Position numbers and translations under genes: made by a program. The notes under the pieces are model-generated. The model saw nothing but the letters and a program-made list of their open reading frames with translations, made no database searches and had not been told where the DNA came from. A DNA stretch of 64,000 nucleotides from Siphlonurus alternatus (Eukaryota > Arthropoda > Insecta > Ephemeroptera > Siphlonuridae), in contig OX463779.1 in NCBI GenBank assembly GCA_949825025.1, positions 35,908,203-35,972,202 on the forward strand, in the 5' to 3' direction. Below, one piece after another: positions 24,291-48,700 of the stretch (the stretch's first letter is position 1; the number at the start of each line of letters is the position of its first letter).

Positions 24291-27200
24291 TCAAAGAGAT
24301 GACTTCACGGTCTCCATTTCTCCAACAATAGCCACTGCATCAATTTCAATTTTGGCTCCCTAAAAATCATAAAATAATAATATTAACATGCAAGTATATT
24401 TTCATGAGTTCACTTACGTAAAGCTATTTTTCTACATTATCTATATGTACTGTATATAGTAAAAATTTACCCACACAATTTACCACAAGGCTTCTCTGCA
24501 TGAGCACCGTATACCGTTTGTAAACCCGGCACACGTCCGGACGGACCTCCAATTCTCGCCACACGTTGCCAGAATAGCCGGCGTGATTAATCTGATTGGT
24601 GTTGTGATGAGAACTTGAGGCAGTGGAGGCCCGTCCGGACGTGTGCCGGGGTACCAACGATGCTCATGTGGAGAAGCCTTGTGGTAAATTGTGTGGGTAA
24701 ATTTTTATTCAAACGAATAATTAAATAAGGACAATCTCTTTGAGATGACAGCTGATTCTGCGGAGTTTGGAGCTCAGAAACGGCCATTTTTGTTCCTTTT
24801 TCGTTTCAAAAGAAAACAAGTCCATACAATGCTTTTTTGCTTGCAATTTTGAAAATGTTAATTGTTGAGCTTTAATTTGATATATAACAAGTTCATGTTA
24901 CCATCCTGCTTCATACTTTAATTTGCCTGTCAATTCGTGCGCATTTCTATGGACACCCTGTATATTTACAATATAATGTAAGGTTCAATGTCATTATTAA
25001 TTGAGAGTTACAGTATTTTAAAGATGCAGAATGAATGAATTTTTTTATCAAGGATGTCGTGGTAAAAATGACTAACAGGTTTTACATCAAAGTCATTTTT
25101 ACCGTGGTATCGTCAATATTTATATGAAATACTAATGTATACACTATATCTTACCAAAGGTAGTTTAGCAACTTGATATGCCATCCTTGCTGGGTACGGT
25201 TCATTAAAAACTGAAACATAATTGATAACAAGAATTAAAAGTGCAGTACATAGTTATATCACTTATTTTTTTAGTACACAGTAAATAATTCAGGGGGAAA
25301 AAAAAAATAAGAAATAAAATTATCAATAAAAATAAGACTAAGTTTTGTGTTTTTTCGTGTTTTAACTACAAACTCATACAATAACACAATGTTATGTTGT
25401 ATATTATTATAGTATATATACAATTAATTATCAAGGCTGCCCAAGCCTGCATCGCCCAGTCATTTAGTGTCTACTGCGTTTGCTAAAAGATATTAGAGGA
25501 ATGAGAGTTTTAACTGAAAACAATTAGTCAAACCTTCGGACCATAAAAGTTGAAGTTTGCTATACTGGGATCTTTACAGCTATCAATGAATGATAGTGTT
25601 GAACTGTAGGTAATAAAAAATGGGTGAAGCAAAATTTTCTTTAGTGTCACAGTTAATTATTATTGGCTATAAGCGTGCCATCGTTTCCGGCCACCTCCCC
25701 CCAACTTCAGAGCAAATACATTATTTTCATGTGTATACAAGCATGAAATATTTTAATGTCCCCTATCCTTTCAAAATATAATTACCGTACTTACATTGCT
25801 TGTAGATATTATTCACCACAGCAAAGTCATTAAGATCTGCTAGGAGAACTGTAGTTTTTACAACTGCAACACAATACATTTTAACTATAAATACAGATGA
25901 AAAGAAACAACATAGTTACAGTATATAAATCTATTAAGATAAGATTTCTGATTTGTATGTAGTTAATATAATAATTAAAGTGCTTTTAGCATTGTCAGTC
26001 TTGTCACTCGCCATTGTCAAAAGATGTTCCTGCAGCAGCTAGCACATTTTTCATATGGGTGAGTGCGGCCCTTGCCTCCTCTGCAATGCCTCCCGGCACC
26101 AGCTTGCTTTCCTCATCTGTGCCAATCATCCCGGATACATAGAGCGTATTGTCCACCTGCACAGCTTGGCTGAAGGCAGAAGAAAACAGGATTTTTCAAC
26201 ATTATTGCATTAAGATATATTTATGCTAAACAAACAAAAAATTATACTGCTTAACTCGATCGCTGCCGTTTTTTTTTTTTTTTTTTTTTTTTCCCAGGAA
26301 TAAGGTCTTTTGCCAGCCCTGCATTAATTATTATATAATTGTAAAATTGGACCCTTTTATATCACTTTTATGTATAAAATTATATCGCATACTTTTTTCT
26401 GTGATTCAGACTCCGATAAAATGCTAATTAAAAAAAAAAAATCTTAAGGATTGACCTCAGTTGATTGAGATCTCGAAATCGGCCCCCTTAAATGCTACTA
26501 GATTTGTTGAGAACATCAATAGGTGGCATGTAAATTTTGAAGTAGATCGGTCTTATCAGTTTTGAGCAGGGATCGGATGCAGATGCAAGATGCACACGGA
26601 TGCGCAAAAATGGGCTTGCATCCGCATCCGTGCATCCCAGATGCACAGGAAAAAATGAATGCATCCAGATGCACGGGGAAAAATGAATGCATCCGGATGC
26701 GTATCCCAGATGCATGAAAAATAAATTTTTACATCCGGATGCGCATCCACGGATGCACGAAAAATAAATTTGCATCCATTTAACACTTTTTTTTTTCTCT
26801 TTTTTAATCAAGTTTTTTGCTAATGGCCTCTAAATAAATCTTTAACACGAGGCATTTTTTTAAAATTTATTTGCCACTTGTCGTTTAAAATTGCAAGAAA
26901 CAAAGTGTACTATAAAAACCAAAGATCGGATGCAGGTGCAAGACGCACACGAATGCTCAAAAATGGGCTTGCATCCGCATCCATGCATCCCAGATGCACG
27001 GGAAAAAATTAATGTATCCGGATGCGCATCCCAGATGCATGGAAAATAAATTTGCATCCGGATGCGCATCCCAGATGCATGAAAAATAAATTTGCATCCG
27101 GATGCGCATCCATGGATGCACGAAAATTTAATTTGCATCCGGATACGCATCTCGGATTCACGAAAAAAACGCGTGCATCCGGTCCCTGGTTTTGAGAAAA

Positions 27201-29387: not shown

Positions 29388-30499
29388 TGGCCATACTGTC
29401 CTCAAAAAGTGCGAAAGGGCACTAAAAATTTAAAGATCAAGGTTTTATCTACATTAAAATGTATTTTTGTTATTGTATATAATTATAATATTATAGTTTC
29501 ATGACCAAATCGAAGCATGTTGCAAGATTACACGGCATATTAAATACATAAAAACGGCATTACTTAGAGAGAAACTCGCATAAAACGGAGATATAATAAT
29601 TATAAGTTTCTCAATTAGTTCACATAAGTACTTTATATGCATGTTATATATGCAATTAATTGCTGCATGGCATATAATTATGTGGCCGAGATTTATTTCT
29701 TCCGACGGTTTCATTATAAAGAACTACTGCGTTGCCGAAATGATAATTTGAAACTATTATGTACCTAGCAAGCATGTTATATATAAATATCGATCTGTCC
29801 AAACATTTATTAAATATATATATATATATTAATATATATGGTATATAATTTTAAAATTAAATATTCACTTTATTTTAGATTAAATTGAAATGTGGAATCA
29901 GATTTCTCCATGATGATTAAACATTGAATATAACTGTTGAGTTTTTATTAATCTAGTTTTTATTAATTCGATAATCTAGCATCCTGCAATATTTTTCAAC
30001 CATCTTTTTAACATTAATATGTTATATATTATATATATCACAAATATTATATATTATAGCTCTCTGCAACTCATTATCTCAAAAAGTCATTGGAAATATG
30101 GAGAATCTTAACAAATGAATTTAGAATGAGAATATTACATTAAAAAATTTTTGATTATACTACACAGGAGACATGAAACTCTTTCGAAGTTATTTTTCTA
30201 AGTTTTGAGGTTATAACAATTTACTGAACAAATTTAGTATGATATATATATACGAATTAAATTTAATGTCGTTTAAATTAACAGCAGAGGAATCTTTTAA
30301 AATGATTCTGAAATGGCAATAAAGAATTTTCTGTTATATATTACAGGGAACAACTTTTTGATTCACATTTTTCTGAGTTTTAATGTTAATATATTTGTTG
30401 AATTAGATTCCAATGTTTAAATATATAATCAAAATTTTCATGTCGCGTCGTTGAAACAGCGGGAAATTTGTCGATTGATTGTAAAATGGTTTTAAACAA

Positions 30500-33400
30500 T
30501 TTTCTGAGGTGGTGATGATCAATTTTCTCCCTGACATTTTCCTGAATTTTGATGTACTAATTAATGCATTATTTTACTATGTTAAATATACTATTAAATA
30601 TTCAAGGACGTTGTAACAGCAGGAAACTTGACGAATGAATCTAAATTGAATTTAAAGTAATTTCTGAGGTGGTAATGATCAACTTTCTCCCTGACATTTT
30701 CCTGAATTTTGATGTTACCATTATAATTAATGCATTATTTTACTTTGTTAAATACACTATTCAATATTCAAGACGTTGTAACAGCAGGAAACTTGACGAA
30801 TGAATCTGAAATGAATATAAAGTAATTTCTGAGGTGGTAATGATCAACTTTCTCCCTGACATTTTCCTGAATTTTGATGTTACTAATTAATGCATTATTT
30901 TACTTTGTTAAATACACTATTCAATATTCAAGATGACGTTGTAACAGCAGGAAACTTGACGAATGAATCTGAAATGAATATAAAGTAATTTCTGAGGTGG
31001 TAATGATCAACTTTCTCCCTGACATTTTCCTGAATTTTGATATTACTATTATAATTAATGCATTATTTTACTTTGTTAAATACACTATTCAATATTCAAG
31101 ACGTTGTAACAGCAGGAAACTTGACGAATGAATCTGAAATGAATATAAAGTAATTTCTGAGGTGGTAATGATCAACTTTCTCCCTGACATTTTCCTGATT
31201 TTTGATGTTACTAATTAATGCATTAATATACTTTGTTAAATACACTATTCAATATTCAAGACGTTGTAACAGCAGGAAACTTGACGAATGAATCTGAAAT
31301 GAATATTAAGTAATTTCTGAGGTGGTATTGATCAACTTTCTCCCTGACATTTTCCTGAATTTTGATGTTACTAATTAATGCATTATTTTACTATTTTAAG
31401 TATACTATTCAATATTCAAGACGTTGTAACAGCAGGAAACTTGACGAATGAATCTGAAATGAATATAAAGTAATTTCTGAGGTGGTAATGATCAACTTTC
31501 TCCCTGACATTTTCCTGAATTTTGATGTTACTATTATAATTAATGCATTATTTTACTTTGTTAAATACACGTACTATTCAATATTCAAGACGTTTTAACA
31601 GCAGGAAACTTGACGAATGAATCTGAAATGAATATAAAGTAATTTCTGAGGTGGTAATGATCAACTTTCTCCCTGACATTTTCCTGAATTTTGATGTTAC
31701 TAATTAATGCATTATTTTACTTTGTTAAATACACTATTCAATATTCAAGACGTTGTAACAGCAGGAAACTTGACGAATGAATCTGAAATGAATATTAAGT
31801 AATTTCTGAGGTGGTAATGATCAACTTTCTCCCTGACATTTTCCTGAATTTTGATGTTACTAATTAATGCATTATTTTACTATGTTAAGTATACTATTCA
31901 ATAATCAAGACGTTGTAACAATTAGGAAACTTGACGAATGAATCTGAAATGAATATAAAGTAATTTCTGAGGTGGTAATGATCAACTTTCTCCCTGACAT
32001 TTTCCTGATTTTTGATGTTACTAATTAATGCATTAATATACTTTGTTAAATACACTATTAAATATTCAAGGACGTTGTAACAGCAGGAAACTTGACGAAT
32101 GAATCTGAAATGAATATTAAGTAATTTCTGAGGTGGTAATGATCAACTTTCTCCCTGACATTTTCCTGAATTTTGATGTTACTAATTAATGCATTATTTT
32201 ACTATGTTAAGTATACTATTAAATATTCAAGGACGTTGTAACAGCAGGGAACTTGACGAATTGATCTAAAATGAATATAAAGTAATTTCTGAGGTGGTAT
32301 TGATCAACTTTCTCCCTGACATTTTCCTGAATTTTGATGTACTAATTAATGCATTATATTACTATGTTAAATATACTATTAAATATTCAAGGACGTTGTA
32401 ACAGCAGGAAACTTGGCGAATGAATCTAAATTGAATTTAAAGTAATTTCTGAGGTGGTAATGATCAACTTTCTCCCTGACATTTTTCCTGATTTTTGATG
32501 TTACTAATTAATGCATTATTATACTTTGTTAAGTACACTATTAAATATTCAAGACGTTGTAACACCAGGAAACTTGACGAATGAATCTGAAATGAATTTA
32601 AAGTAATTTCTGAGGTGGTAATGATCAACTTTCTCCCTGACATTTTCCTGAATTTTGATGTTACCATTATAATTAATGCATTATTTTACTTTGTTAAATA
32701 CACTATTCAATATTCAAGACGTTGTAACAGCAGGAAACTTGACGAATGAATCTGAAATGAATATAAAGTAATTTCTGAGGTGGTAATGATCAACTTTCTC
32801 CCTGACATTTTCCTGAATTTTGATGTTACTAATTAATGCATTATTTTACTTTGTTAAATACACTATTCAATATTCAAGATGACGTTGTAACAGCAGGAAA
32901 CTTGACGAATGAATCTGAAATGAATATAAAGTAATTTCTGAGGTGGTAATGATCAACTTTCTCCCTGACATTTTCCTGAATTTTGATATTACTATTATAA
33001 TTAATGCATTATTTTACTTTGTTAAATACACTATTCAATATTCAAGACGTTGTAACAGCAGGAAACTTGACGAATGAATCTGAAATGAATATAAAGTAAT
33101 TTCTGAGGTGGTAATGATCAACTTTCTCCCTGACATTTTCCTGATTTTTGATGTTACTAATTAATGCATTAATATACTTTGTTAAATACACTATTCAATA
33201 TTCAAGACGTTGTAACAGCAGGAAACTTGACGAATGAATCTGAAATGAATATTAAGTAATTTCTGAGGTGGTATTGATCAACTTTCTCCCTGACATTTTC
33301 CTGAATTTTGATGTTACTAATTAATGCATTATTTTACTATTTTAAGTATACTATTCAATATTCAAGACGTTGTAACAGCAGGAAACTTGACGAATGAATC

Positions 33401-34720
33401 TGAAATGAATATAAAGTAATTTCTGAGGTGGTAATGATCAACTTTCTCCCTGACATTTTCCTGAATTTTGATGTTACTATTATAATTAATGCATTATTTT
33501 ACTTTGTTAAATACACGTACTATTCAATATTCAAGACGTTTTAACAGCAGGAAACTTGACGAATGAATCTGAAATGAATATAAAGTAATTTCTGAGGTGG
33601 TAATGATCAACTTTCTCCCTGACATTTTCCTGAATTTTGATGTTACTAATTAATGCATTATTTTACTTTGTTAAATACACTATTCAATATTCAAGACGTT
33701 GTAACAGCAGGAAACTTGACGAATGAATCTGAAATGAATATTAAGTAATTTGGGAGGTGGTAATGATCAACTTTCTCCCTGACATTTTCCTGAATTTTGA
33801 TGTTACTAATTAATGCATTATTTTACTATGTTAAGTATACTATTAAATATTCAAGGACGTTGTAACAGCAGGGAACTTGACGAATTGATCTAAAATGAAT
33901 ATAAAGTAATTTCTGAGGTGGTATTGATCAACTTTCTCCCTGACATTTTCCTGGATTTTGATGTACTAATTAATGCATTATTATATTTTGTTAAATACAC
34001 TATTAAATATTCAAGACGTTGTAACAGCAGGAAACTTGACGAATGAATCTAAAATGAATATAAAGTAATTTCTGAGGTGGTAATGATCAACTTTCTCCCT
34101 GACATTTTCCTGAATTTTGATGTTACTAATTAATGCATTATTTTACTATGTTGAGTACACTATTAAATATTCAAGGACGTTGTAACAGCAGGGAACTTGA
34201 CGAATTGATCTAAAATGAATATAAAGTACTTTCTGAGGTGGTATTGATCAACTTTCTCCCTGACATTTTCCTGAATTTTGATGTACTAATTAATGCATTA
34301 TTTTACTTTGTTAAATACACTATTAAATATTCAAGGACGTTGTAACAGCAGGAAACTTGACGAATGAATCTGAAATGAATAGTAAGTAATTTCTGAGGTG
34401 GTAATGATCAACTTTCTCCCTGACATTTTCCTGATTTTTGATGTTACTAATTAATGCATTATTATACTTTGTTAAATACACTATTCAATATTCAAGACGT
34501 TGTAACAGCAGGAAACTTGACGAATGAATCTGAAATGAATATAAAGTAATTTCTGAGGTGGTAATGATCAACTTTCTCCCTGACATTTTCCTGATTTTTG
34601 ATGTTACTAATTAATGCATTATTATACTTTGTTAAATACACTATTAAATATTCATGGACGTTGTAACAGCAGGAAATTTGACACATGATTGTAAAATGAT
34701 TTTAAACAATTTCCTGCGTT
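30500..34720. repeat. Tandem ~160-bp repeat array, left arm
   Basis: About 26 units, each with TTTCTGAGGTGGTAATGATC, TTTTCCTGAATTTTGATG, TTAATGCATTATTTTACT and CAGCAGGAAACTTGACGAAT in order. Spacing measured at 30661, 30827, 30989, 31154 and 31314 is 160-166 bases. Units at the outer edge are more diverged. A higher-order period exists: a block starting near 30712 recurs near 32656 (offset about 1944) with the same private variants, for example a 4-base insertion in the ACACGTACTATTC word. No protein is encoded. Confidence 0.9.
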
Positions 34721-34741
34721 ACTTATGATCAACTTTCTTCG

Positions 34742-35671: not shown

Positions 35672-35779
35672 TACGTAATAAATATAAGTAATATAACAAT
35701 AAATGTTACGATTAACGATACATTCTCGGCATATATCAATTTTTATTTTGAAATTCATTAATTGTAATTTAAATAAAAC

Positions 35780-36180
35780 GGTGCCCCGAGTTGTCCTAGC
35801 TAGGCTCCAGGATGTCCGCGCTCCGAGCTGTCCGTGCTCCGAGTTGTCCTACCTAGGCTCCAGGATGTCCGCGCTCCGAGCTGTCCGTGCTCCGAGTTGT
35901 CCTGCCTTGGCTCCAGGATGTCCGCGCTCCGACCTGTCCGCGCTCCGACCTGTCCGTGCTCCGAGTTGTCCTGCCTTGGCTCCAGGATGCCGCGCTCCGA
36001 GCTGTCCGTGCTCCGAGTTATCCTGCCTTGGCTCCAGGATGTCCGCGCTCCGAGCTGTCCGTGCTCCGAGTTGTCCTGCCTTGGCTCCGAGCTGTCCGTG
36101 CTCCGAGTTGTCCTAGAAGCACGTTTGGCTCCGAGCTGTCCGGCTCCCAGTTGACCGCGCTCCGAGTTCTCCGGATACCG
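35780..36180. repeat. GC-rich minisatellite, right inner arm (expanded)
   Basis: About 400 bases of repeats built from CTCCGAGCTGTCCGTG, CTCCGAGTTGTCCTGCC and GGCTCCAGGATGTCCGCG. The composite unit is about 52-70 bases. It is roughly four times longer than its mirror at 34742-34855. Open frames on both strands here are repeat artefacts. Confidence 0.85.
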
Positions 36181-36189
36181 AAGAAAGTT

Positions 36190-39100
36190 GATCATCAGTA
36201 ACGCAGGAAATTGTTTAAAATCATTTTACAATCATGTGTCAAATTTCCTGCTGTTTCAACGTTCATGAATATTTAATAGTATACTTAACATAGTAAAATA
36301 ATGCATTAATTATTAACATCTAACATCAAAATTCACGAAAATGACAGGGAGAAAGTTGATCATTACCACCTCAGAAATTACTTTAAATTTAATTTAGATT
36401 CATTCGTCAAGTTTCCTGCTGTTACAACGTCCTTGAATATTTAATAGTATATTTAACATAGTAAAATAATGCATTAATTAGTACATCAAAATTCAGGAAA
36501 ATGTCAGGGAGAAAGTTGATCAATACCACCTCAGAAATTACTTTATATTCATTTTAGATCAATTCGTCAAGTTCCCTGCTGTTACAACGTCCTTGAATAT
36601 TTAATAGTGTATAATTTAACATAGTAAGATATTCCATTAAATTTTAACATCAAAATTCAGGAAAATGTCAGGGAGAAAGTTGATCATTACCACTTTAGAA
36701 ATTACTTTAAATTCAATTTAGATTCATTCGTCAAGTTTCCTGCTGTTACAACGTCCTTGAATGTTTAATAGTATATTTAACATAGTAAAATAATGCATTA
36801 ATTACTACATCAAAATTCAGGAAAATGTCAGGGAGAAAGTTGATCAATACCACCTCAGAAATTACTTTATATTCATTTTAGATCAATTTGTCAAGTTTCC
36901 TGCTGTTACAACGTCCTTGAATATTTAATAGTATACTTAACATTGTAAAATAATGCATTAATTAGTAACATCAAAATTCAGGAAAATGTCAGGGAGAAAG
37001 TTGATCATTACCACCTCAGAAATTACTTAATATTCATTTCAGATTCATTCGTCAAGTTTCCTGCTGTTACAACGTCTTGAATATTTAATAGTGTATTTAA
37101 CAAAGTAAAATAATGCATTAATTAGTAACATCAAAATTCAGGAAAATGTCAGGGAGAAAGTTGATCATTACCACCTCAGAAATTACTTTATATTCATTTC
37201 AGATTCATTCGTCAAGTTTCCTGCTGGTACAACGTCTTGAATATTTAATTGTGTATTTAACAAAGTATAATAATGCATTAATTAGTAACATCAAAAATCA
37301 GGAAAATGTCAGGGAGAAAGTTGATCACAACCACCTCAGAAATTACTTTATATTCATTTCAGATTCATTCGTCAAGTTTCCTGCTGTTACAACGTCCTTG
37401 AATGTTTAATAGTATATTTAACATAGTAAAATAATGCATTAATTACTACATCAAAATTCAGGAAAATGTCAGGGAGAAAGTTGATCAATACCACCTCAGA
37501 AATTACTTTATATTCATTTTAGATCAATTTGTCAAGTTTCCTGCTGTTACAACGTCCTTGAATATTTAATAGTATACTTAACATTGTAAAATAATGCATT
37601 AATTAGTAACATCAAAATTCAGGAAAATGTCAGGGAGAAAGTTGATCATTACCACCTCAGAAATTACTTAATATTCATTTCAGATTCATTCGTCAAGTTT
37701 CCTGCTGTTACAACGTCTTGAATATTTAATAGTGTATTTAACAAAGTAAAATAATGCATTAATTAGTAACATCAAAATTCAGGAAAATGTCAGGGAGAAA
37801 GTTGATCAATACCACCTCAGAAATTACTTTATATTCATTTTAGATCAATTCGTCAAGTTCCCTGCTGTTACAACGTCCTTGAATATATAATAGTATGATA
37901 CTTAACATAGTAAAATAATGCATTAATTAGTAACATCAAAATTCAGGAAAATATCAGGGAGAAAGTTGATCATTACCACCTCAGAAATTACTTAATATTC
38001 ATTTCAGATTCATTCGTCAAGTTTCCTGCTGTTACAACGTCTTGAATATTGAATAGTGTATTTAACAAAGTATATTAATGCATTAATTAGTAACATCAAA
38101 AATCAGGAAAATGTCAGGGAGAAAGTTGATCATTACCACCTCAGAAATTACTTTATATTCATTTCAGATTCATTCGTCAAGTTTCCTGCTGTTACAACGT
38201 CTTGAATATTTAATTGTGTATTTAACAAAGTATAATAAAGCATTAATTAGTAACATCAAAAATCAGGAAAAAGTCAGGGAGAAAGTTGATCATTACCACC
38301 TCAGAAATTACTTTAAATTCAATTTAGATTCATTCGTCAAGTTTCCTGCTGTTACAACGTCCTTGAATATTTAATAGTATGATACTTAACATAGTAAAAT
38401 AATGCATTAATTAGTAACATCAAAATTCAGGAAAATGTCAGGGAGAAAGTTGATCATTACCACCTCAGAAATTACTTAATATTCATTTCAGATTCATTCG
38501 TCAAGTTTCCTGCTGTTACAACGTCTTGAATATTGAATAGTGTATTTAACAAAGTATAATAATGCATTAATTAGTATAACATCAAAATTCAGGAAAATGT
38601 CAGGGAGAAAGTTGATCATTACCACCTCAGAAATTACTTTATATTCATTTCAGATTCATTCGTCAAGTTTCCTGCTGGTACAACGTCTTGAATATTTAAT
38701 TGTGTATTTAACAAAGTATAATAATGCATTAATTAGTAACATCAAAAATCAGGAAAATGTCAGGGAGAAAGTTGATCACAACCACCTCAGAAATTACTTT
38801 ATATTCATTTCAGATTCATTCGTCAAGTTTCCTGCTGTTACAACGTCTTGAATATTGAATAGTGTATTTAACAAAGTAAAATAATGCATTAATTATTAAC
38901 ATCTAACATCAAAATTCAGGAAAATGTCAGGGAGAAAGTTGATCATTACCACCTCAGAAATTACTTTAAATCTAATTTAGATTCATTCGTCAAGTTTCCT
39001 GCTGTTACAACGTCCTTGAATATTTAATAGTATATTTAACATAGTAAAATAATGCATTAATTAGTACATCAAAATTCAGGAAAATGTTAGGGAGAAAGTT

Positions 39101-40131
39101 GATCAATACCACCTCAGAAATTACTTTATATTAATTTTAGATCAATTCGTCAAGTTCCCTGCTGTTACAACGTCCTTGAATATTTAATAGTATACTTAAC
39201 ATAGTAAAATAATGCATTAATTAGTAACATCAAATTTCAGGAAAATGTCAGGGAGAAAGTTGATCATTACCACCTCAGAAATTACTTTATATTGATTTCA
39301 GATTCATTCGTCAAGTTTCCTGCTGTTACAACGTCTTGAGTATTTAATAGTGTATTTAACAAAGTATAATAATGCATTAATTAGTAACATCAAAAATCAG
39401 GAAAATGTCAGGGAGAAAGTTTATCATTACCACCTCAGAAATTACTTAATATTCATTTCAGATTCATTCGTCAAGTTTCCTGCTGTTACAACGTCTTGAA
39501 TATTTAATAGTGTATTTAACAAAGTAAAATAATGCATTAATTAGTAACATCAAAATTCAGGAAAATGTCAGGGAGAAAGTTGATCATTACCACCTCAGAA
39601 ATTACTTTATATTCATTTCAGATTCATTCGTCAAGTTTCCTGCTGGTACAACGTCTTGAATATTTAATTGTGTATTTAACAAAGTATAATAATGCATTAA
39701 TTAGTAACATCAAAAATCAGGAAAATGTCAGGGAGAAAGTTGATCACAACCACCTCAGAAATTACTTTATATTCATTTCAGATTCATTCGTCAAGTTTCC
39801 TGCTGTTACAACGTCCTTGAATGTTTAATAGTATATTTAACATAGTAAAATAATGCATTAATTACTACATCAAAATTCAGGAAAATGTCAGGGAGAAAGT
39901 TGATCAATACCACCTCAGAAATTACTTTATATTCATTTTAGATCAATTTGTCAAGTTTCCTGCTGTTACAACGTCCTTGAATATTTAATAGTATACTTAA
40001 CATTGTAAAATAATGCATTAATTAGTAACATCAAAATTCAGGAAAATGTCAGGGAGAAAGTTGATCATTACCACCTCAGAAATTACTTAATATTCATTTC
40101 AGATTCATTCGTCAAGTTTCCTGCTGTTACA
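36190..40131. repeat. Tandem ~160-bp repeat array, right arm, before the LINE
   Basis: The same unit as the left array in reverse orientation (ATGTCAGGGAGAAAGTTGAT, ACCACCTCAGAAATTACTT, GTCAAGTTTCCTGCTGTTAC). The stretch from 37731 to about 39420 is repeated almost exactly at 46112-47801, beyond the LINE. The 87- and 103-residue open frames that recur here are read-through of the repeat, not genes. Confidence 0.9.
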
Positions 40132-40331
40132 CCTGAGAGCTTAACTACAATATTTTCACTGCTCCGTAATTTTTAAAGATTAACCTTTTTATCTATCATT
40201 TAATTAAAAAGAAAGTCTGTTCATCGGAAAGTTGAAGTTTTTTTCTATTAAGTGATACATTACTACTAAGTGTCCTGTGCATTGAACTTTAAATATAAAG
40301 GTGTGATAAATATTCTCTTGAGAACAACATC

Positions 40332-42668
40332 ATGACGGACCTACGCTCCATGCGTGCTACACCTCAGTTCTGCTCTCCGCTCGTACCACACTGGCCGCCA
40401 CCTGCTAGAACTACACCGGAGGTTTTTAACTCACAATTTATTAATTATGATAAAAATAATTCTGATATACATATGTCCAATGAAAGCCTATCAAATGATC
40501 TGACTGTACATCCAATGTACAAATTAATTCAACATAATATTAAGGACTTATTTACTGACTTTAGAGAAGAAATTAAATGCACTATTAAATTAATGTTAAA
40601 TGAAAGAAATGGAATTTCTTCTGCAAATAACTTTAATAATGAGGGAAATTCAAATCATCAATGTCATATACAAACAGCTGATTATGACAGGTCACCAGTT
40701 CAATTCTCGCGACCTTGGAGGACGGCTGGTTACACAAAACAACGCCCACCTCAGCCGACGTCGTTCACTAGAGTGCCACAGCAGCAGCAGCAATCACGCC
40801 AGCAGCAGCAGCAACAATCTGAGCAATCACGCCAGCAGCAGACACGCCGGCAGCACGTTGTAAGTCAGTATCAACCTCGTCGCCCGCTCCAACACCAACT
40901 GAGCGCTCAGCGACCGCACCCTACCCAGCTGCCGCGCCAAAGCCAGGGTGCCCAATTGCGCCCCCCAAGACCTCCTTATAATCCGTGGGGTGCGACAGTA
41001 CCAACATCAAACTCATTTTCAGTACTACAACATATTAATAATGAGTCTTTTCCGACTTTACATCAGAAAAATACCAATAACCATAATATAAAAAGAAAAC
41101 ATCAAAATTTCCGTTTCATTGAAAAGAAAGGAAATTTGTTTGACGCACCACCAGGCACATCCTACGCCCACTGCGTTGATAAAACATTTAAACAAGGACG
41201 TGGAGTTGCAACTCAATTTAAAAAAAAACATGGACAAACCCCTTTTTTAAAGAGTCAACTCAAAAATACTGGTGAAGTAGCTGTTTTATCTTCAGATGAC
41301 AGTTTTATTTTCTACTTAGTTACTAAATCTGTCCATAACAGCTATCCTGACCACTCAAATATACTACTTGCATTAAAAAATTTAAGAAATATCTGTGAGA
41401 TTTTAAGTATAAAAAAACTCGCAATTCCTCGTTTAGCATGTGGCAGAGACGGTTTCAACTGGTCTACTATAAAACAAGACATTATTTCAGTGTTCAAAGA
41501 TCTTGACATTGAAATTGTTGCTTATTATGGATGGAAGACATTAGCAAAGAAAGTTGCAAGTAATGATGATGAAACAGCTGTTAAAGAACTCTTTGAGGAA
41601 TCAGCCCAATCTACTCTAGCAAACGTCATTACCGCTAGGGCCCCTCCTTCTAATAACCTGGCGGTCCTTGTAAGTTCCGGGCAATGCCAGACCTCTACCT
41701 TGCGAGCGAGTACCCGCCCCTCAATTGTCACGCCTGACATAGTGAGGGTGGAGGGACTGCCAGTGCCAGCCACGAAGGAGCAGATGTCTAATACCCGGGG
41801 CGAGAAGTCAGGCCTCGCTCAGGTGAACGACGGTACCACCCCGGGCGAGGAGTCAGGCCTCGCTTCGGTGAACGACGGTACCACCCCGGGCGAGGAGTCA
41901 GGCCTCGCTTCGGTGAACGACGGTACCACCCCGGGCGAGGAGTCAGGCCTCGTTTCGGTGAACGACGGTACCACCCCGGGCGAGGAGTCAGGCCTCGCTT
42001 CGGTGAACGACGGTACCACCCCGGGCGAGGAGTCAGGCCTTGCTCCGGTGAACGACGGTACCACCCCGGGCGAGGAGTCAGGCCTCGCTTCGGTGAACGA
42101 CGGTACCACCCCGGGCGAGGAGTCAGGCCTCGTTTCGGTGAACGACGGTACCACCCCGGGCGAGGAGTCAGGCCTCGCTCCGGCGAACGACGGTATTGCC
42201 CCGAGTGAGGAGTCAAGTCTTGTTTTGGTAAACAATAGTTTGCCTGAATCAGGACCACCCTTACCAGATCCTGTATGTTCTCTTGAATTGAATCAAGATA
42301 TTATAGATCTGAACTCATTACATCCAAGACTCAAAGCTTTTTTACTAACGATTTTAGATAATAAATTCCAATTTACAAATGATCTATTAAAAAATGATGA
42401 AACCGCTGCTAAGAAAAGTGCAATTAATTCAGAAAAATCAATTAATGAAATTTCATCTGTTGTCTCACCATCCATTATTAGTAAAAATGATACTATTAAT
42501 GATAATGTTTTGAGTTCAAATGTTGATAATTTTAATCTGGCATCTCAATTGAAATCCCCCATTAAAAATTCTCAGGAAGATACACAATCTTCCCCTGTGA
42601 GATCACGGCTCCGTGCCAGTACACTAAACAGTATCTCCACCAAATTGCCCAACAAAAAAAAAACTTAA
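40332..42668 (+). CDS. LINE ORF1 protein with TARG1-like macro domain
   Basis: 778 residues. Order: a disordered N terminus; a Gln/Arg-rich stretch at about 150-210; a macro domain at about 260-402; ten 15-residue repeats at about 488-637; and a low-complexity acidic/basic tail. The macro domain has NLFDAPPGTSYAHCV, GVATQFKKKHG, GEVAVL, FYLVTK and LACGRDGFNW. These align with human TARG1/OARD1, which removes ADP-ribose from acidic residues. The TARG1 catalytic pair Lys84/Asp125 corresponds here to Lys332 and Asp373, the same 41-residue spacing. No RRM, CCHC knuckle, esterase or coiled coil typical of LINE ORF1 is seen; the Gln/Arg stretch may bind RNA. Activity is inferred, not shown. Confidence 0.88.
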   Translation: MTDLRSMRATPQFCSPLVPHWPPPARTTPEVFNSQFINYDKNNSDIHMSNESLSNDLTVHPMYKLIQHNIKDLFTDFREEIKCTIKLMLNERNGISSANNFNNEGNSNHQCHIQTADYDRSPVQFSRPWRTAGYTKQRPPQPTSFTRVPQQQQQSRQQQQQQSEQSRQQQTRRQHVVSQYQPRRPLQHQLSAQRPHPTQLPRQSQGAQLRPPRPPYNPWGATVPTSNSFSVLQHINNESFPTLHQKNTNNHNIKRKHQNFRFIEKKGNLFDAPPGTSYAHCVDKTFKQGRGVATQFKKKHGQTPFLKSQLKNTGEVAVLSSDDSFIFYLVTKSVHNSYPDHSNILLALKNLRNICEILSIKKLAIPRLACGRDGFNWSTIKQDIISVFKDLDIEIVAYYGWKTLAKKVASNDDETAVKELFEESAQSTLANVITARAPPSNNLAVLVSSGQCQTSTLRASTRPSIVTPDIVRVEGLPVPATKEQMSNTRGEKSGLAQVNDGTTPGEESGLASVNDGTTPGEESGLASVNDGTTPGEESGLVSVNDGTTPGEESGLASVNDGTTPGEESGLAPVNDGTTPGEESGLASVNDGTTPGEESGLVSVNDGTTPGEESGLAPANDGIAPSEESSLVLVNNSLPESGPPLPDPVCSLELNQDIIDLNSLHPRLKAFLLTILDNKFQFTNDLLKNDETAAKKSAINSEKSINEISSVVSPSIISKNDTINDNVLSSNVDNFNLASQLKSPIKNSQEDTQSSPVRSRLRASTLNSISTKLPNKKKT
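41793..42242 (+). repeat. 45-bp coding minisatellite within ORF1
   Basis: Ten units of exactly 45 bases, starting at 41793, 41838, 41883 and so on to 42198. Each encodes a 15-residue unit of the form TPGEESGLASVNDGT. The first and last copies are diverged; the inner eight are nearly identical. It is strongly GC-rich while the rest of ORF1 is AT-rich. The antisense frames over it are repeat artefacts. Confidence 0.95.
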
Positions 42669-42765
42669 TGTTCAGGTTCACTCAGCCCCATGTAATATTA
42701 AAATTCTTCAGCTTAACTTACCAGGCCTAAAAAATAAATTACCAAAATTTGAGTATTTTCTTGAA

Positions 42766-45669
42766 ATGGTTGATTGTGATATAATTATATTATGTGAACA
42801 TGGGCTGAATGAATCTGAAATTATAACAATAAATTTTAAAAATTTTATGATAGTTTCATATTACTGTAGAGATATTCAAAAATGTGGGGGAGTAGTAATT
42901 CTATCTCGTAAAGGTTCAAATATAAATGATATTAAAATAAAATCCATTGAATCAGTTTTTGAATGCTGCATAGCGAAATTAGTAATTAACAATACAACAA
43001 ACATTTATTTTGCTTCTATATATCGCCCACCTAATATATCTAGAGTGATGAAAAAAATTCAGAATTTTGACAACACAGAAAATAATATAAAACCATTCTT
43101 AAAAGAATTTGAAATGTTATGCAAAAAATTAATTAAATACTGTAAAAATAATGATGATTTTTTTATTATTGCGGGTGACGTAAATCTTAATTTATTTATT
43201 GATGATGCAAATGTAATTTTATATAAAGATATACTGGACTCATACAAGTTGGAAATTGTTAATAGTTCCGCTACTAGAGAAACAATGAAAACGGCTACTT
43301 TAATTGATCATATTATTAAAAGTACATCTGCTATTAATACTAATTATAAAACTGAAAAAACAACTCTGTCGGACCATAACTATACTATAGTCACAATAAC
43401 ATTAAATAACTCGAAGAACATTGATAAAATACAAGAAAAACAATTTTATTATAAACGAATATTTGACAAATGCAATTTAGATAATTTTCTGCTCCTATTA
43501 ATTCGTGAAGAATGGAATGATTTATTAAATCCTGATCTCAATTCAAATGAGAGATGGTCAAAATTTCTTGAAATTTTTATTTATCATTTCAACGAGGCTT
43601 TTCCTGTTGTTAAAAGAAAAATTTCAAGTAACAAAAATAAACCTTCCTGGATACTCAATAACCCCCATCTTTACGAACAAGGGATTTCTTTAAAACGCTT
43701 ACACTATGATGTAAAATTTACTGACCCAAATTTAGAGTCTACTTATAAAAAAGAAATGAAATCTTATAAACAAAATATGGCCACCGCTAAATTTAAAGAG
43801 AATGACCATGAAATAAAAGGAGCTAATAATAAAATTAAAGCTACGTGGAATATAATTAATAAAGAATGCAAAACAAAGAAAACAAATGTTAATAATAAGA
43901 ATAATTATGAATTATGTATAAATAGTGTAACGATTACAGACCCCAAACTAATTTGCAATTTATTTAATAATTTTTTTGTCAAGACAATTGAAAATATAAT
44001 AACAGAAAAATTTCCTTTTAATTATTCTAATACTTTAATTATTGTCGATTCTGATAAAAGTAAAACGAAATTAAATTTTAGTTCGATAGACCCGATTTAT
44101 ATTTTAAATCGAATGAAATCCCTTCCTAATAAGTATGCAGCTGGCCCAGACGAAATACCATATACTGTTGTAAAATATTGTGCTTCTGTTTTGTCTGTCC
44201 CTTTATCTAATTTAATTAACCATTCAATATCAGATGGTATATTTCCTGATTGTTTAAAGGATTCTAAGATTTATGCAACTCATAAAAAAGGCCCAACTTT
44301 CATTATTGATAATTACAGACCAATATCAAATACATCTGTTTTTGGCAAATTATTTGAGAATACATTAGACGATCAAATTACGGATTATCAAACAGAAAAT
44401 CATTTAATTGCTCCCTGTCAACATGGATTCTTGAAAGACCGTTCTACTGATACAGCACTATTTGATCTTTTAAGCCACGTTTATATGGCAATAGATAATA
44501 AACTATTTTGCGTTGCAATATTTTTTGATTTATCTAAAGCGTTTGATAGTCTAAATAAAGATGTATTATTGAATAAATTTGATAACATGGGAATAGGAGT
44601 TTCGAGTCGTAATCTATTAGATTCATATCTAACTAACAGACAACAATATGTTGAATTAAATTCAAATTCTAACGGCCAAAATATTACATATAAATCAGAC
44701 AAATTACCGATTACACTTGGAATTCCTCAAGGAGGAAAAATGTCAGCCACATTGTTTAATACAGGAACAAATGACTTATCAGATCATGTCAAGAATGCGG
44801 TATTAGTAAAGTATGCTGATGATATTACAGCTATAATCACAGCAGAAGCCGAAGATGAATTAATTCGTAAGATTAAACTTACTATTGAAGAGGTACATAC
44901 ATGGTGTACAAATAATAAGCTAATATTAAATTCAACTAAAACCGAATACATCCAATTTCATTCCCCTAGACAAATCCCTTTGAATAGTTATTTGTTGCAA
45001 TTAGCCGGGAAAACAATTAAAAGAGCAGAGTCTGTTAAGTTTCTTGGTCTACACATTAATGAAAGTTTGGATTGGTCTTTACATGTAAATGCGATTTGTA
45101 AGAAGATAAATTCGGCCAATTTTATGTTATATACAATCAGGAATCATGTATCTCATGAAACCTTGCTAACCATATATTATGCGTATGTTTATCCACATTT
45201 GGCATATGGCATAATAAATTGGGGATGTAAATCGGAACTATTGAATCGATGTTTTGTTTTGCAAAAGAGAGCACTTAGAACGATTTTAAGAATACCAAAA
45301 GGACAGTCGTGTGTTTCACATTTTAAGGCTAATAAAATGTTAACTGTCCCTTGCATTTATATTTTAAATTGTGCCTCATTCAAAAAAAATCATCCAAATT
45401 TTTATGTTCAGAATGATGGCTATCATGACTATAATACTAGGAATAAATCGAATGTAGTTACTGAAAGACATAACACACAATTTTTCAAAAACTGTGCAAT
45501 GTATCAAACAGCAAAATTTTATGAATTTTTACCAGCATGTTTGAAAGAAATAAAAACCAGTAAACTTTTTCGCACAAAATTAAAGAATGTATTGATCAAT
45601 AAAGAGTTTTACTCTATTAAAGCTTTTGAGAGTAATAAAATGTCTGAAAAAGTATTATCAGGATTATAA
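42766..45669 (+). CDS. LINE ORF2: AP endonuclease and reverse transcriptase
   Basis: 967 residues from the first in-frame ATG. Endonuclease: Glu11 in LCEHGL, YRPP near 87-90, GDVNLN (Asp138, Asn140), LIDHI near 184-188 and SDHN (Asp203, His204). Reverse transcriptase: [28 protein letters not shown] with Asp588, [12 protein letters not shown], and YADD with Asp685/Asp686. A C-terminal region after about 800 is present. The catalytic residues look intact. The frame is open upstream to about 42650 and encodes ILQLNLPGL, the usual first endonuclease motif, before any ATG. The true protein therefore probably begins upstream by recoding from ORF1. It is in the +1 frame relative to ORF1. Confidence 0.93.
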
Positions 45670-45716
45670 AATAAACAAAATTATAAATTTACATATACAT
45701 TGTATTGACTGATATA

Positions 45717-45774
45717 TATATATGTATGTATATGTATATATACATATATGTATGTGTGTGTATATGTGTATGTG

Positions 45775-45815
<41 letters not shown>

Positions 45816-45850
45816 ATGTGTATGTATGTATGTATATATATATATGTATG

Positions 45851-45883
<33 letters not shown>

Positions 45884-45886
45884 GTT
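45717..45886 (+). repeat. TA/TATG microsatellite in the LINE 3' UTR
   Basis: Alternating runs of TA, TATG and TG units just after the ORF2 stop. The alternating Tyr/Ile/Val/Cys frames here are artefacts. Confidence 0.9.
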
Positions 45887-46111
45887 CCACATAAACTAAA
45901 ATTTATCAGTATTAATGGTGACTTTGGCTTGTATTTTGTTTTTATTATTTTGTCAGTGATTGTGTTTGATAGTGTTAAATAACTTATGTAAATGTGTTTA
46001 AGTTTGATGTTTTTATGTTGTATTTTGTCCAATTTTGACTTGAACATATGTTTGTCTTGTACAACCAAAAAGAAGTTCCAAAATAAAAATAAATAAATAA
46101 ATAAATAAATA

Positions 46112-48700
46112 GTGTATTTAACAAAGTAAAATAATGCATTAATTAGTAACATCAAAATTCAGGAAAATGTCAGGGAGAAAGTTGATCAATACCACCTCAG
46201 AAATTACTTTATATTCATTTTAGATCAATTCGTCAAGTTCCCTGCTGTTACAACGTCCTTGAATATATAATAGTATGATACTTAACATAGTAAAATAATG
46301 CATTAATTAGTAACATCAAAATTCAGGAAAATATCAGGGAGAAAGTTGATCATTACCACCTCAGAAATTACTTAATATTCATTTCAGATTCATTCGTCAA
46401 GTTTCCTGCTGTTACAACGTCTTGAATATTGAATAGTGTATTTAACAAAGTATATTAATGCATTAATTAGTAACATCAAAAATCAGGAAAATGTCAGGGA
46501 GAAAGTTGATCATTACCACCTCAGAAATTACTTTATATTCATTTCAGATTCATTCGTCAAGTTTCCTGCTGTTACAACGTCTTGAATATTTAATTGTGTA
46601 TTTAACAAAGTATAATAAAGCATTAATTAGTAACATCAAAAATCAGGAAAAAGTCAGGGAGAAAGTTGATCATTACCACCTCAGAAATTACTTTAAATTC
46701 AATTTAGATTCATTCGTCAAGTTTCCTGCTGTTACAACGTCCTTGAATATTTAATAGTATGATACTTAACATAGTAAAATAATGCATTAATTAGTAACAT
46801 CAAAATTCAGGAAAATGTCAGGGAGAAAGTTGATCATTACCACCTCAGAAATTACTTAATATTCATTTCAGATTCATTCGTCAAGTTTCCTGCTGTTACA
46901 ACGTCTTGAATATTGAATAGTGTATTTAACAAAGTATAATAATGCATTAATTAGTATAACATCAAAATTCAGGAAAATGTCAGGGAGAAAGTTGATCATT
47001 ACCACCTCAGAAATTACTTTATATTCATTTCAGATTCATTCGTCAAGTTTCCTGCTGGTACAACGTCTTGAATATTTAATTGTGTATTTAACAAAGTATA
47101 ATAATGCATTAATTAGTAACATCAAAAATCAGGAAAATGTCAGGGAGAAAGTTGATCACAACCACCTCAGAAATTACTTTATATTCATTTCAGATTCATT
47201 CGTCAAGTTTCCTGCTGTTACAACGTCTTGAATATTGAATAGTGTATTTAACAAAGTAAAATAATGCATTAATTATTAACATCTAACATCAAAATTCAGG
47301 AAAATGTCAGGGAGAAAGTTGATCATTACCACCTCAGAAATTACTTTAAATCTAATTTAGATTCATTCGTCAAGTTTCCTGCTGTTACAACGTCCTTGAA
47401 TATTTAATAGTATATTTAACATAGTAAAATAATGCATTAATTAGTACATCAAAATTCAGGAAAATGTTAGGGAGAAAGTTGATCAATACCACCTCAGAAA
47501 TTACTTTATATTAATTTTAGATCAATTCGTCAAGTTCCCTGCTGTTACAACGTCCTTGAATATTTAATAGTATACTTAACATAGTAAAATAATGCATTAA
47601 TTAGTAACATCAAATTTCAGGAAAATGTCAGGGAGAAAGTTGATCATTACCACCTCAGAAATTACTTTATATTGATTTCAGATTCATTCGTCAAGTTTCC
47701 TGCTGTTACAACGTCTTGAGTATTTAATAGTGTATTTAACAAAGTATAATAATGCATTAATTAGTAACATCAAAAATCAGGAAAATGTCAGGGAGAAAGT
47801 TTATCATTACCACCTCAGAAATTACTTTATATTCATTTCAGATTCATTCGTCAAGTTTCCTGCTGTTACAACGTCCTTGAATGTTTAATAGTATATATTT
47901 AACATAGTAAAATAATGCATTAATTACTACATCAAAATTCAGGAAAATGTCAGGGAGAAAGTTGATCAATACCACCTCAGAAATTACTTTATATTCATTT
48001 TAGATCAATTCGTCAAGTTCCCTGCTGTTACAACGTCCTTGAATATATAATAGTATGATACTTAACATAGTAAAATAATGCATTAATTAGTAACATCAAA
48101 ATTCAGGAAAATGTCAGGGAGAAAGTTTATCATTACCACCTCAGAAATTATTTTATATTGATTTCTGATTCATTCGTCAAGTTTCCTGCTGTTACAACGT
48201 CTTGAATATTTAATAGTGTATTTAACAAAGTATAATAATGCATTAATTAGTAACATCAAAATTCAGGAAAATGTCAGAAAGAAAGTTGATCATTACCACC
48301 TCAGAAATTACTTTATATTCATTTCAGATTCATTCGTCAAGTTTCCTGCTGTTACAACGTCTTGAATATTTAATAGTTTATTTAACATTGTAAAATAATC
48401 CATCAAATATTAACATCAAATTTCACGAAAATGTGAGGGAGAAAGTTGTTAATCAGCACCTCAGAAAATTGATTAAAATCATTTTGCAATCATTCGTCAA
48501 ATATCCTGCTGTTACAACGCCCATGAATATTTAATATTGTATTTAGCAAAGTGAATTAATGCATTAAATATTTACATCAAAATTGAGGAAACTGTCAGGG
48601 AGAAAATTGATCATCACCACCTCAGAAAATTGTTTAAAACCATTTTACAATCAATCGACAAATTTCCCGCTGTTTCAACGACGCGACATGAAAATTTTGA
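46112..48700. repeat. Tandem ~160-bp repeat array, right arm, after the LINE
   Basis: Continues the right-arm array. From 46112 to about 47801 it copies 37731 to about 39420, including private variants such as GAATATATAATAGTATGATA and AGTATAACATC. Without the LINE the offset would be about 2.4 kb, so the LINE lies between two members of a large tandem duplication. Units after about 48400 are increasingly diverged, mirroring 30100-30500. Confidence 0.9.

Follow-up and report, generated by a model that had tools for sequence, protein, structure and literature searches.

The first open reading frame (ORF1) of a long interspersed nuclear element (LINE) of the insect Siphlonurus alternatus encodes a TARG1/OARD1-type macro domain. 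The element is located in a 64,000-nucleotide stretch of contig OX463779.1 (positions 35,908,203 to 35,972,202; assembly GCA_949825025.1), hereafter called the window. With a probability of about 0.45, we hypothesize a new class of LINE ORF1, in which the domain is an active ADP-ribose eraser derived from animal TARG1. It would form an exchangeable 5′ module recombined among several LINE lineages, taking turns with a different ORF1 in at least one of them, and would raise retrotransposition by clearing the products of poly(ADP-ribose) polymerases (PARPs) at the nick or on the ribonucleoprotein (RNP). Macro-domain erasers are found in hosts, some RNA viruses, and bacterial toxin-antitoxin systems; here, young retrotransposons have a putative eraser within their first protein, where it is under selection.

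The initial annotation of the window proposed a macro domain of the TARG1 type in which both catalytic residues are kept, and named a structure search as a check. The sequence and structure searches confirm the domain, with TARG1 as the first structural match, and its macro fold is nearest to that of TARG1. It is 34–37% identical to human TARG1 structures. The catalytic dyad of TARG1 consists of Lys84 and residue 125, as given in the accessible text of PMC7050489. Lys332 and Asp373 of ORF1 are 41 residues apart, the spacing of Lys84 and Asp125 in TARG1, and both residues are present at this spacing in all 26 LINE-type domains (23 loci, the window, and proteins P0002 and P0003; three near-duplicates, L033, L038, and L042, are included), some of which are just 37–43% identical to the domain of the window. 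Apart from Macro, the Pfam search of the window ORF1 matched only NifZ, at E 0.27. We consider it quite probable that the domain is catalytically active. The part of ORF1 preceding the domain is rich in glutamine (36 Gln in residues 1–258), and the 45-bp repeat that follows encodes TTPGEESGLASVND-like units.

The domain is not restricted to one copy. A search of the 456-Mb assembly containing the window, in which 150 of 315 candidates were scored, gave 150 matches with identities of 37–100%, some of which are fragments of a single copy. Forty-eight are 100% identical (the window's included), and 146 of the 150 are free of internal stops. Twenty-four loci were hand-picked to cover the identity range (20, and later four more, not all from the spans of the 150 matches), and ORF2 sequence lies downstream of the domain in 23 of them (19/20 in the first set and 4/4 in the second). 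In L048, only the reverse transcriptase part of ORF2 was recognized, beginning about 1 kb past ORF1. The remaining locus, L049, lacks ORF2; its open frame encodes 167 amino acids with the TARG1 signatures GAGIA and GCGLD, and it is probably the host's own OARD1. The window and the 23 loci, without the near-duplicates, contain 21 distinct LINE domains, so that the macro domain is carried by about 20 of the genome's LINE families, although no formal family threshold was used. The presence of the domain in other copies, which had been set as a further check, thus extends to many copies and some 20 families. Outside this assembly, a protein search with ORF1 found P0002, alignable along the entire ORF1 with 47% identity overall, and P0003, 33% identical over 222 residues, both from other records. 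A protein search with the bare domain found no relative, nor did scans of viral contigs and of genome contigs.

The macro domain is under purifying selection. The dN/dS ratios (Nei-Gojobori) are 0.04–0.21 in eight of ten domain pairs, with synonymous sites saturated in the other two, and are rough because several dS values exceed 1. Comparison of the window ORF1 with P0002 gives 78% identity for the macro part and 42–60% for the remaining parts. At least one of the macro-ORF1 LINE families is young. The best 30 of the 150 loci are 99.86–99.97% identical to the window over 2.1–2.9 kb; 24 of them start at query position 1 and six at positions 4–823, and their flanks differ. Reverse transcriptase matches at 100% identity number at least 129 (129 scored of 3997 candidates).

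In the phylogenetic tree, the LINE, host, and human domains group together against three plasmid-borne bacterial sequences with support of 100/97, on long branches; the tree omits the three near-duplicates and L054–L057. Because of this grouping, we assign the LINE macro domain to the animal-type TARG1. A single clade of all LINE macro domains has support of 33/1 and is neither shown nor rejected. The alternative groupings gave p 0.45 for a LINE clade without P0003, p 0.45 for host with L045, which retains the host-like GAGIA loop, and p 0.15 for host with human. The domain is not the capture of a single element: it is common to about 20 families and has been exchanged between ORF2 lineages.

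The macro-domain tree and the ORF2 tree are in conflict. The domains of L043 and L044 are 92% identical and their ORF2s 50%; L039 and L036 have values of 87% and 50%, L046 and L050 of 80% and 32%, and L039 and the window of 63% and 71%. For groups chosen after the trees had been seen, three macro groupings are rejected by the ORF2 data (p 8e-4 to 5e-61) and two of three ORF2 groupings by the macro data, the grouping of L048 with L050 not being rejected (p 0.33). At the nucleotide level, L039 is strongly similar to L036 in the 5′ part, including the macro domain, up to about 290 nt past the domain, and its strong similarity to the window begins near the ORF1 end. Therefore, the join is placed in the C-terminal part of ORF1. 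The join between L043 and L044 was not located, as their nucleotide comparison gives one long alignment. L031, L039, L043, and L044, of each of which one locus was fetched, are probably not single chimeras because the 150 matches include two or three with equal or almost equal scores for each. These comparisons indicate that the macro module has been exchanged between ORF2 lineages.

The reverse transcriptase part of L058 is 56% like that of L050, and a different ORF (positions 435–1067 on the minus strand of L058) is next to its endonuclease, with no macro domain within the fetched 2.6 kb. This ORF has a Pfam match only below the cut-off (WDCP, E 0.043) and none in the PDB; we take its appearance to be RRM-like. 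In L059, with a reverse transcriptase part 87% like that of L050, neither a macro domain nor a recognized ORF1 is present in the 2.0 kb ahead of the endonuclease. The one locus L058 suggests that ORF1s of different kinds alternate in the L050-like lineage.

What the domain does can be approached from the known activities of TARG1 and PARPs. The accessible text of PMC8053099 describes two kinds of site from which TARG1 removes mono-ADP-ribose: acidic residues, and the 5′ or 3′ terminal phosphates of DNA and RNA. It also describes a preference of PARP2 for 5′-phosphorylated ends at nicks and gaps in DNA. According to the accessible part of PMC8535693, the break at which L1 integrates is bound by a complex of PARP1 and PARP2. 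We infer a catalytic domain, a substrate made at the nick, and ORF1 as the carrier. The ORF1 protein, with the LINE RNA and ORF2, would deliver the hydrolase to the target site, where host PARPs would be activated once the ORF2 endonuclease had nicked the DNA. The macro domain would then strip ADP-ribose from acidic residues, from terminal phosphates on the nicked strand or the cDNA, or from both, and this removal would let strand synthesis and joining be completed. Since a nick of the kind preferred by PARP2 is expected from the LINE endonuclease, clearing ADP-ribose at the insertion site is the first choice among the roles of an ORF1-borne eraser. This explanation as a whole is tentative, a little short of an even chance, and the same caution applies to its central element, that the PARP products of the insertion site may be the main substrate of the domain.

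Several observations weigh against an active eraser that promotes insertion. Human L1 retrotransposition falls when PARP1 or PARP2 is lost, as reported in the accessible part of PMC8535693, and because PARP activity helps human L1, an eraser could do harm unless it acted late. The Ala of the TARG1 loop GAGIA is replaced by Arg in 22 of the 26 LINE domains (19 counted by a pattern script, with L043, L044, and L050 read separately), including residue 290 of the window ORF1 (41199–41201); the exceptions are L045, L054, L055, and L057. This Arg could alter binding or catalysis. Neither the LINE domains nor the host gene conserve Ser35 of TARG1. Of 18 aligned domains, a set that includes the one from the host gene, 15 match Pfam Macro at E 0.01. 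The roughness of the dN/dS ratios belongs here too, as does the state of ORF2: 13 of 20 frames, the window included, stay open for 995 codons or more, and seven (L031, L033, L038, L045, L047, L048, and L050) are broken by a stop or frame break.

The domain may instead serve counter-defence, removing PARP-added ADP-ribose from the LINE RNP, RNA ends, or silencing chromatin and not at the nick. The fold, the catalytic residues, and the selection fit this explanation equally well, and the spread of a module among lineages is expected of a counter-defence trait. RNA ends are among the substrates of TARG1, which also binds RNA (PMC8053099, accessible text), and a viral helicase captured by LINEs has been linked to the suppression of RNA silencing (PMC5563155, accessible text). 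We regard this role as unlikely, though it is the strongest competitor of erasure at the insertion site.

Somewhat less likely still is a role chiefly in binding, with ADP-ribose, poly-ADP-ribose, or RNA as the ligand, by which the domain would either tether the RNP to damaged chromatin or replace the usual RNA-binding part of ORF1, with catalysis incidental. The window ORF1 has no Pfam match to an RNA-binding domain, and CCHC and PHD patterns are absent from all 20 LINE ORF1s scanned, a result that includes no structure test for a divergent RRM or coiled coil beyond the macro domain. L058, a relative of L050 in ORF2, adjoins another ORF1, and TARG1 is recruited to damage sites in a poly-ADP-ribose-dependent manner, besides its RNA binding (PMC8053099, accessible text). 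The full dyad is unneeded for binding alone, yet Lys and Asp are both kept even in the most divergent of the 26 domains. That the domain arose in a single chimeric copy or through misassembly, or is carried along neutrally, is very improbable: only the putative nature of its function speaks for this, and the 150 largely stop-free genomic matches, the approximately 20 families, the alignment of P0002 from another record along the entire ORF1, and dN/dS far below 1 all contradict it.

Among known systems, TARG1 (OARD1, C6orf130), of the ALC1-like macrodomain class of animals, resembles the LINE domain in fold, size, and dyad spacing. The LINE version differs in being internal to a 778-residue ORF1 and in mostly having Arg in the GAGIA loop, and its hydrolase activity is a predicted one. 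The macrodomain of DarG, the antitoxin of the bacterial DarTG system, is more distant, with 23–25% identity for three DarG entries; DarG keeps the Lys of the dyad alone (PMC7050489, accessible text), whereas the LINE domains keep Lys and Asp.

The accessible text of PMC4120745 sorts LINE ORF1s into types I–V of the Khazina and Weichenrieder scheme, with RRM, CCHC, coiled coil/Tnp22, PHD, and esterase domains. The element of the window resembles these in having the ORF as the first of an endonuclease-reverse transcriptase LINE and in a modular, reticulate history relative to ORF2. It differs in its macro domain, which is not named among the five types in that text, in agreement with the initial annotation; the word "macro" does not occur in it, nor in the accessible text of PMC7140322. 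The macro ORF1 is likely a new ORF1 type, or part of the unclassified type V. Other LINEs have captured an RNA helicase from viruses (in ORF2 of TRAS and ORF1 of Jockey); they are similar in that an enzyme domain was captured by insect elements and its motifs were kept, but the helicase is of viral origin, unlike the animal-type ADP-ribosyl hydrolase described here (PMC5563155, accessible text). Domain capture by LINEs and ORF1 reticulation were thus already known from the accessible texts of PMC5563155 and PMC4120745, respectively. Judged by titles and abstract beginnings, none of the literature matches listed describes a LINE ORF1 with a macro domain; an earlier notice is possible, as Repbase and subscription journals were outside the search.

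The presence of the domain suggests that LINE families may, during insertion, edit a signal by which the host marks damage or mounts a defence. It becomes directly testable whether retrotransposition is limited by ADP-ribosylation, be it of the nick site or of the LINE RNP, and the approximately 20 divergent, maintained TARG1 homologues provide a natural set for enzymology.

Table 1 Features of the macro-domain LINE in the window
Feature	Position	Strand	Remarks
LINE element	40132..46107	+	satellite junction to end of AAAT-repeat tail, ~6 kb
ORF1	40332..42668	+	778 aa
TARG1/OARD1-type macro domain	41106..41537	+	ORF1 residues ~259–402
Lys332	41325..41327	+	counterpart of TARG1 Lys84
Asp373	41448..41450	+	counterpart of TARG1 Asp125
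45-bp tandem repeat	41793..42215	+	15-aa units, C-terminal part of ORF1
ORF2 open frame	42628..45669	+	1013 codons and stop; first listed ATG at 42766
EEP (apurinic-type) endonuclease domain of ORF2	42685..43434	+	profile/Pfam matches
Reverse transcriptase core including YADD	44083..45000	+	RVT_1

ORF2 of the window is composed of an N-terminal endonuclease and a reverse transcriptase (Pfam RVT_1, E 4.9e-30). Among ten aligned ORF2 N-termini, PF03372 is matched in ten and PF14529 in nine at E 0.01, the window's own scores for both being below the curated cut-offs; a profile of the ten finds L1 endonucleases in the PDB with a best E of 7.9e-9. With these two ORF2 domains and its dispersed young copies sharing a 5′ end, the element is an APE-type LINE (non-LTR retrotransposon). 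No Pfam match to RNase H is present, which is compatible with the Jockey superfamily (CR1, L2, and Jockey lineages), and the C-terminus may have the look of this superfamily. The open frame of ORF2 overlaps the last 41 nt of ORF1 in a different frame, and ORF2 frames extend back across the ORF1 end in 19 of 20 elements. No in-frame ATG precedes the first Asn of the endonuclease in 17 of 19 cases (window 42628–42766, and the starts of L031–L047 and L050). A run of ten A is positioned immediately ahead of the ORF1 stop in the window. ORF2 is likely translated via a frameshift or a non-AUG start.

The LINE is inserted within an array of a 160-bp satellite. Arrays of this satellite occupy 30449–34738, 36182–40131, and 46108–48680, the first oriented opposite to the other two, and the 693 bp to the right of the LINE (46108–46800) are 100% identical to 37728–38420. 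The window copy lacks 8–14 nt, ending GGCAGCA, that are found upstream of the start in 24 of 30 inspected copies, which are those sharing its first base. GC-rich 53-bp repeats (TGTCCGCGCTCCGAGC...) with open frames on both strands lie between satellite arrays at 35703–36195. Short repeats of about 40 and 80 bp, made of GCATCC/GATGC words, are located at 310–459 and 26969–27169.
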